DNA from: Natranaeroarchaeum aerophilus
Lineage (GTDB): Archaea > Halobacteriota > Halobacteria > Halobacteriales > Natronoarchaeaceae
Length of the DNA stretch: 64,000 nt
Direction: 5' to 3'
Assembly (NCBI RefSeq): GCF_023638055.1
Contig: NZ_JAKRVY010000002.1
Location: 248,001-312,000 of the forward strand
In this document: in pieces, positions 10,269 through 47,632 of the stretch
How the letters are laid out: every line of letters begins with the position of its first letter
Numbering within the stretch: position 1 is the first letter of the stretch
The notes under the pieces: model-generated
What the model was told of the DNA's origin: nothing
The model's database searches: none
What the model saw: only the letters and a program-made list of their open reading frames with translations
Made by a program: the position numbers and the translations under genes

Positions 10269-10588
10269 TGGCGTGTTCTAGCGGGTGCGGCGGTCAAACG
10301 CGTTTCGTCGTCTATCGATCACTCTCGATTCTGCCTGACAGCCAGCGCCGCCTGCCCTTCCCCGTCGGCGCGCATACAGCGCGCCTCGGCCACCGCCGCT
10401 GGACGTTGGGGCGTGTGGGAGTGGTAACGTCGCAGTAGAGCTATCGCTCGCTGGTGGGTTTGGAGGTATTCATGCCGGACTCGTACTGATCGCTCTTCGA
10501 TGCTTGCTCCGTGAGAAGTTGTGCGTGGGTGCAGTCCCAAGAGGAATGCACCGTGCATCGACTTCGGCGGAGTTACCGCCAGTGCGAT
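10269..10588. other. 320 bp gap with GC-rich hairpins, no convincing gene
   Basis: Between the helicase start and tRNA-Leu. GGCGCGC at 10367-10373 pairs perfectly with GCGCGCC at 10379-10385 over a 5 nt loop, enclosed by CCAGCG (10342-10347) and CGCTGG (10397-10402). This could be a structured RNA or a terminator downstream of the minus-strand tRNA. A 79-codon minus-strand frame (10319-10558) overlaps it, with an Ala/Arg-rich sequence I do not recognise and no promoter or ribosome site; I do not call it. Confidence 0.35.
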
Positions 10589-10672
10589 GCGTGGGACCGG
10601 ATTTGAACCGGCGGACCTCTACAGGACAGCGCCCTCAACGCTGCGCCGTTGGCCTAGCTTGGCTACCCACGC
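10589..10672 (-). tRNA. trnL-GAG: tRNA-Leu (anticodon GAG)
   Basis: Read on the minus strand the 84 nt fold as a class II tRNA. The acceptor arms GCGTGGG and CCCACGC pair fully. The anticodon stem CAGCG/CGCTG encloses the loop TTGAGGG, giving anticodon GAG for CUC/CUU leucine codons. A variable arm CCT-GTAG-AGG and a T loop TTCAAAT follow. CCA is not encoded. A TATA-like TTTTATCC at 10711-10718 (minus strand) sits about 40 bp upstream of the 5' end, the normal spacing for archaeal tRNA promoters. No intron is present. Confidence 0.95.
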
Positions 10673-47387: not shown

Positions 47388-47462
47388 GCTCCGTTGGTGT
47401 AGTCCGGCCAATCATTTCGGCCTTTCGAGCCGATGACCTGGGTTCAAATCCCAGACGGAGCA
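47388..47462 (+). tRNA. trnE-UUC: tRNA-Glu (anticodon TTC)
   Basis: 75 nt including discriminator A. Acceptor arms GCTCCGT and ACGGAGC pair fully; anticodon stem TCGGC/GCCGA closes the loop CTTTCGA, so anticodon TTC; T arm CTGGG-TTCAAAT-CCCAG. CCA is not encoded. Downstream lie two direct and one inverted copy of the T-arm and acceptor end, suggesting integration events at this gene. Confidence 0.96.
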
Positions 47463-47495
47463 CTACAGCGAACGCAGTGAGCGAAGCGCGCACGT

Positions 47496-47558
47496 TCTGG
47501 GATTTGAACTACGCGAGACGAGCACCAGCGAGTCTCGCCATCGAGTTCAAATCCCAGA
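47496..47558 (+). repeat. Inverted tRNA-Glu T-arm copy forming a 22 bp hairpin
   Basis: TCTGGGATTTGAACT at 47496-47510 is the exact inverse of AGTTCAAATCCCAGA at 47544-47558, and the inner GCGAGAC (47513-47519) pairs with GTCTCGC (47532-47538) across a 12 nt loop. The outer arms are copies of the tRNA-Glu T arm in opposite orientations. It may act as a terminator or be a recombination scar. Confidence 0.7.
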
Positions 47559-47565
47559 CGGAGCA
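47537..47565 (+). repeat. tRNA-Glu 3'-end copy 1 (possible att scar)
   Basis: Contains 21 bases identical to the last bases of tRNA-Glu (GTTCAAATCCCAGACGGAGCA; given split: GTTCAAATCC then CAGACGGAGCA). The 29 base unit, starting GCCATCGA, recurs at 47604-47632. A duplicated tRNA 3' end is the usual mark left by a tyrosine integrase. Confidence 0.7.
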
Positions 47566-47603
47566 CCTGTCCCAATCTCAACTCTCGAGCGAAGCGAGCG
47601 TTT

Positions 47604-47632
47604 GCCATCGAGTTCAAATCCCAGACGGAGCA
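47604..47632 (+). repeat. tRNA-Glu 3'-end copy 2 (possible att scar)
   Basis: Identical over 29 bases to 47537-47565, including the eight bases GCCATCGA before the tRNA-derived part. No integrase, excisionase or other mobile gene lies between or beside the copies, so any element has left. Confidence 0.7.

Follow-up and report, generated by a model that had tools for sequence, protein, structure and literature searches.

Short two-hairpin cassettes ending in tRNA-tail copies behind tRNA genes of Natranaeroarchaeum aerophilus and other Halobacteriales: a candidate family of non-autonomous mini-elements

The window analysed here, a stretch of 64,000 nt from the genome of Natranaeroarchaeum aerophilus, bears a tRNA-Glu(TTC) gene whose 3' tail recurs downstream, which raises the question of whether such copies are scars of departed viruses, parts of an RNA or elements in their own right. 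According to the original prediction, the intact tRNA is followed by one inverted and two direct tail copies, and all of these were found where it had placed them (Table 1; the tRNA end is that of the Rfam tRNA model, and ARAGORN puts it at 47463). The last 21 nt of the tRNA are repeated exactly in both direct copies, and the inverted copy (15 nt) is 100% complementary to 47544-47558 and 47611-47625. The direct copies share, as had also been claimed, 29 identical bases (47537-47565 and 47604-47632) and not 21, because both H2 hairpins end in CATCGA. The pairing that had been described as a 22 bp hairpin is real, but its exact form is a 15-bp outer stem and a 7-bp inner stem with an asymmetric internal loop between them. 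Folded as single-stranded DNA, the first unit (47463-47565) reached z = -5.7 against dinucleotide shuffles. The exact 21-mer has three sites in the 3.29-Mb genome, every one at this locus, and allowing up to three mismatches adds a single further site, the end of tRNA-Glu(CTC) itself. Chance origin of the tail copies was ruled out by this genome-wide search together with shuffled-flank controls. ORFs across the locus are mechanical only. No cassette was found behind the other tRNA of the window, tRNA-Leu(GAG) at 10588-10672.

Table 1. Features of the tRNA-Glu(TTC) locus, in positions of the window
Feature	Position	Strand	Source
tRNA-Glu (anticodon TTC), intact	47388..47462	+	ARAGORN, Rfam
tRNA 3' tail (positions 53-73), source of the duplicated sequence	47442..47462	+	
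H1 segment of cassette 1, directly against the tRNA end	47463..47495	+	
Inverted copy: T-loop and T-stem 3' strand	47496..47510	-	
Inner part of hairpin H2, cassette 1: TACG / stem CGAGAC..GTCTCG / CCATCGA	47511..47544	+	
Direct tail copy 1, end of cassette 1	47545..47565	+	
Start of cassette 2 (truncated, without inverted arm)	47566..47586	+	
3' half of H2 hairpin, cassette 2; similar to the H2 3' half in the sister species' single cassette	47587..47611	+	
Direct tail copy 2, end of cassette 2	47612..47632	+	

Genome analysis showed that such cassettes stand almost exclusively behind tRNA genes. A copy of the own tail lies within 300 nt downstream of 25 of the 43 tRNA genes of this genome and upstream of one, the inverted arm downstream of 26 and upstream of one, and both elements downstream of 23. 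For the sister species the tail copy is downstream in 27/45 vs one upstream, the inverted arm in 27/45 vs two, and both in 23. The tail criterion is a loose one (14 of 21 matches within 300 nt), under which shuffled flanks of the two genus members gave 26/860 and 15/900. Tails of other tRNAs match more often than shuffles (118/928 and 156/1066), presumably because the T-loop is common to all tRNAs. A hairpin pattern (inverted T-arm, 20-50 nt, direct T-arm) occurs four times in the genome, each time near a tRNA gene, and a looser version occurs ten times, always just downstream of one; the tenth follows a tRNA-Gln missed by the tRNA family search. A covariance model of the inner H2 (AG[T/A]CGC...CGTCT type), free of tRNA letters, gave 16 matches at E < 1e-4 (two further ones near 0.05 were left out), and 15 of them are cassettes of tRNA arrays. 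Fourteen are located in the array beside their tRNA and on its strand, including one at tRNA-Pro(CGG), a gene likewise missed by the family search; another has been moved 17 kb away from tRNA-Val(GAC) by an integrative element standing between that array and its tRNA. One H2-like hairpin without tRNA arms was observed away from tRNAs (C5:154069-154118, E = 2.8e-5), between two ribosomal-protein-like ORFs, which we take to be rpl7ae (L7Ae) and rps28e (S28e).

Each cassette consists of a hairpin H1, an inverted T-arm copy, a structured hairpin H2 and a direct copy of tRNA positions 53-73, and a unit was counted from the tRNA end through the end of the next tail. The median length is 125.5 nt with a 5-95% range of 83-192 nt (viral L099-L168 and L179, L213, L215, L236 and L242 were left out, as were tRNAs failing the end test), and units of that size have no room for an integrase gene or an element body between the tail copies. 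The inverted copy, previously regarded as an odd inversion, turned out to be a regular part of the cassette, present in 192 of 221 distinct ones. H1 folds more stably than shuffles (mean z -2.1, n = 180) and the inner H2 more weakly (mean z -1.4, n = 179), compared with a mean z of -0.2 in upstream control windows (n = 86). Inner H2 sequences fall into recurring types. In the AG[T/A]CGC...CGTCT type, the flanking triplets are exactly complementary in 32 of 57 units, in ten different kinds, and the inner stem covaries, with compensatory changes at three pairs of an alignment of 20 in which two rows have hand-copy differences.

The exact hairpin is present in 69 of 81 sampled Halobacteriales genomes vs 3 of the 311 others in a phylum sample of 392 genomes (order rows counted by hand). 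These three have one match each, by our rough estimate about the few expected by chance, and the reversed-pattern control gave zero matches in each of the 392. In a species-level genome collection, a stricter pattern led to 108 stretches; the record titles of the 80 that were listed point almost throughout to Halobacteria, with Nitrosocosmicus/Nitrososphaerales and one Methanomassiliicoccales making up the remainder and no bacterial title among them. These 80 stretches hold 82 hairpins, of which 73 are downstream of a tRNA within 500 nt, eight have no called tRNA and one has a miscalled one. No tRNA was called near the Nitrosocosmicus/Nitrososphaerales loci or the Methanomassiliicoccales locus, and they were omitted from later counts.

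Between relatives, the number and order of the cassettes change. At orthologous tRNAs of the two genus members (28 array loci; 3 of 43 tRNAs have no accepted orthologue) the upstream flanks are closely similar and the arrays are not. Cassette number differs at 22 of the 28, counting Val(GAC), which is displaced by an element, Gly(TCC), which retains a decayed cassette, and Asp, whose pairing is doubtful. At seven of the 28 loci the distal flank is homologous as well, with counts in this genome and the sister of 0/1 for Gly(CCC), 1/0 for Cys, 2/3 for Arg(CCT), 2/1 for Glu(TTC), 2/1 for Met, 3/2 for Arg(GCG) and 2/3 for His; Lys(CTT) and Thr(TGT) are two weaker cases. Two units stand in opposite order between the sisters (A-B vs B-A) at tRNA-His and Ser(CGA), and at Ser(GGA) the first H2 is the same in both while the two H1 segments on either side of it have changed places. 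As for the Glu locus of the window, the sister species has a single unit there, with H2 TACGCAAACG...CGTTTGCATTCGA; unit 1 of the window has the same H1 and a different H2, while unit 2 is truncated and retains just the 3' half of a sister-like H2. The tRNA-Cys locus is filled in this genome and empty in the sister, where the two matching stretches have the tail in common, exactly as an empty site should look. Of seven other family genomes, six are empty at tRNA-Cys and one has an unrelated unit. Since the site is empty in the sister and in most outgroups, the alignment points to a precise gain in this genome. The inverted arm of this apparently recent cassette does not fully match the Cys T-stem. 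tRNA-Gly(CCC) is empty here and filled in the sister, and because several outgroups are filled too, the empty site may be a loss.

Families of H1 and H2 are shared between tRNA genes, with ends that are local. In the best cases, units of different tRNA types have an H1 or inner H2 with 93-100% identity over 45-62 nt; tRNA-Gly(GCC) and tRNA-Asp, both of this genome, are among them. Of all matches, 1189 of 1235 matches between isotypes are on the same strand (46 on the opposite one). H1 and H2 assort independently. Many loci were picked by the hairpin pattern, so that pairing at positions 53-63 is biased in them, and the ends were scored in the unbiased set, the 36 cassettes of the two genus members. 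There, the acceptor part of the direct copy agrees with the own tRNA at 7.14 of 8 positions, as compared to 3.58 for random tRNA tails, and the inverted arm agrees with the own positions 61-65 at 3.83 of 5 (comparison value 2.68).

We consider it somewhat probable that the cassettes are a family of non-autonomous mini-elements whose attachment site is the 3' end of a tRNA gene. They are inserted precisely, with a copied tail; the duplicate at the far end that marks a tRNA-integrated element is seen here as exact 21-nt tails and in the empty/filled pairs. Each insertion would keep the tRNA intact and end in a duplicate of positions 53-73 of that tRNA, and for this reason cassettes would stack in tandem and in one orientation. 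Movement would take place by site-specific recombination at the tRNA tail, with H1 and H2 as recognition structures and not as products. The agents would probably be tyrosine recombinases like those inserting plasmids and viruses there, since archaeal tRNA 3' tails serve as att sites for integrative elements (accessible text of PMC8371274), an element sits at a tRNA-Val tail in this genome and an ORF follows a unit tail in Haloferax larsenii. Our comparison of genome sequences revealed no excised circle, recombinase or transposition event. Cassette losses and order changes could result from ordinary recombination between the 21-bp repeats, and the tail-specific ends are hard to reconcile with one recombinase shuttling cassettes between tRNAs. 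The absence of the Glu core from the viral contigs and the imperfect fit of the Cys inverted arm to its T-stem also count against the mini-element reading.

The main alternative, possible though doubtful, sees the cassettes as a functional module of tRNA transcription units, either a terminator or an RNA, which would serve in termination, in 3' processing or as a small RNA that ends like a tRNA, and whose arrays are resized by repeat recombination. It would account for a structured motif conserved with compensatory changes, for the T-rich starts of the cassettes (CTTCT or TTTTC being commonest) and for the strict orientation, with a purine-rich sense strand in 172 of 185. The better RNA fold, from inverted arm to tail, is usually on the tRNA-sense strand too (lower energy in 147 of 192, against 43 on the other strand), which could reflect an RNA role. 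However, mismatches on that strand are more often A-C than G-T (86:21 and 113:50, counts on which the fixed mismatches of the H2 motif bear), and this lack of a G-T preference would speak against selection for RNA there, so that the energies and the mismatch counts disagree. A known structured RNA was rejected. In the window stretch, Rfam recognised the tRNA and, below threshold, one more match covering that same tRNA; at eight loci, with gathering scores as cut-off, it called nothing but tRNAs and a single r-protein leader lying outside the units. The presence of the cassettes is also irregular for such a module, as 15 of the 43 tRNAs have none and sister species differ at orthologous tRNAs. 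Neither genus member has a cassette at tRNA-Ala(TGC), Asn, Ser(GCT), Leu(CAG) or Leu(GAG). Some cassette-free tRNAs appear to share a transcript with other genes, a possible reason for the absence; for tRNA-Ala(TGC) and tRNA-Ser(GCT), whose lack of a cassette fits a terminator module, the co-transcription is our reading. An identical arrangement in all relatives had been proposed as a sign of a functional RNA; the type of arrangement is widespread in Halobacteriales, but unit number, order and content vary between sister species.

It is unlikely, in our judgement, that the arrays are a gene-less system of the integron kind, in which tRNAs would be the anchors, H2 with tail and inverted arm would fold in single strands to rebuild a double-stranded T-arm site, and one recombinase recognising the T-arm common to all tRNAs would insert, excise and shuffle cassettes over the full tRNA set and re-template their arms on every new target. 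Integron arrays consist of short units that stand in the same orientation beside an anchor and contain an imperfect hairpin as their site, and their order and number are variable. The cassette arrays have likewise tandem units, a recurrent folded site and variable order and number. They differ in that they have no genes, no integron integrase was seen, their anchor is a tRNA gene and their hairpin arms are copies of a tRNA end.

That the array is a stack of att-site scars, left by separate viruses or plasmids which later excised or decayed, was the explanation of the original prediction, and we hold it to be quite improbable, although the insertion at the tRNA 3' end on which it was built is precise and such ends are att sites. 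Tail copies are the expected att duplications, and this genome offers a genuine case, a 17.1-kb integrative element located between tRNA-Val(GAC) and its cassette array (locus C1:478900-497000; from the tRNA to C1:479200). It is flanked by the 15-bp att repeat CTGCCCAAACCCACT and has at its far end an integrase-like ORF (Pfam Phage_integrase 1.2e-5, just below the curated cut-off), which stops some 60 nt short of the repeated CTGCCCAAACCCACT. The Val(GAC) array of the sister species follows its tRNA directly, with no intervening element. In Haloferax larsenii (L199), the ORF that starts just after a unit tail resembles ORFs beside tRNA-Glu(CTC) genes, and its integrase-like N-terminus is our reading, Pfam giving no match for the fragment. 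At this locus (L199 1-3800) the same H2 hairpin occurs twice, at a distance of 3.6 kb; the integrase-like ORF comes after the first, and a tRNA-Glu-like sequence without a normal 5' end comes before the second. The locus looks like an element recombined in or near a cassette. Leftovers of excised viruses would not be expected to share a constant start, two hairpins and an end behind most tRNAs. Decay of many different elements is not expected to yield the same two hairpins, whereas starts, hairpins, length and orientation are similar behind 29 tRNA types and H1 and H2 families extend across types. An att core in viruses had been suggested, yet the exact 20-nt Glu core GTTCAAATCCCAGACGGAGC is present in 0 viral contigs, which together with the recurring H2 types and the shared H1 and H2 families disfavours a virus-scar stack. 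The 70 viral hairpin matches look like background, tRNA genes and proteobacterial-looking proviruses. Seven viral contigs with a GC content near 60% (L117, L126, L132, L146, L150, L163 and L167) bear long near-perfect palindromes resembling tRNA 3' ends, CATGGATTTGAACCATG...CATGGTTCAAATCCATG, which may be a separate instance of tRNA-tail hairpins, in bacterial proviruses.

Little credence is also due to an origin without any mobility, in which units were duplicated in tandem on the spot through homologous or microhomology recombination and gene conversion kept their tails and arms similar: duplicate adjacent cassettes at tRNA-Thr(TGT), near-duplicates at Arg(CCT) and the independent assortment of H1 and H2, as expected from short-repeat recombination, agree with it, but the apparent gain at an empty tRNA-Cys and the like cassettes behind different tRNA genes require an outside source.

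Known systems share parts of this anatomy. The tyrT/rtT repeats of E. coli are tandem units with a tRNA 3' end in each, at one locus and of another length, and to our knowledge they have no inverted arm. Archaeal tyrosine-integrase elements (SSV, pNOB8 and SNJ2 types), as far as the accessible text of PMC8371274 describes them, likewise have their att site at the 3' end of a tRNA gene, which stays intact while its tail is duplicated; they are kilobases long, carry their own integrase and are usually solitary, unlike the cassettes, which are about 125 nt, gene-less, stacked and built of two regular hairpins. The MITE, PATE and SMR of Haloquadratum are, like the cassettes, short, gene-less, palindromic and repeated; the accessible part of PMC3119063 gives them fixed terminal repeats or palindromes and does not describe them as tied to tRNAs. 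Unlike MITE and PATE, the cassettes have no fixed ends, and those they have copy the target tRNA. Partial tRNA genes made by element integration are comparable as partial copies that arise by insertion, but those in the available text of PMC9897764 flank elements of about 9 to 23 kb. No description of such cassettes was found in the open literature, most subscription journals being outside that coverage.

For annotation, short copies of a tRNA tail do not prove past viruses. Should the cassettes be mobile, over half of all tRNA genes in this archaeon, together with many elsewhere in the order, would serve as active landing sites, and their 3' flanks, down to terminators and processing sites, would be under constant revision. 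As Haloferax relatives carry cassettes, mini-elements of this kind would, if real, provide a tractable system to study how a mobile unit gets target-matched ends, as well as a route to why tRNA 3' ends are favoured as attachment sites.
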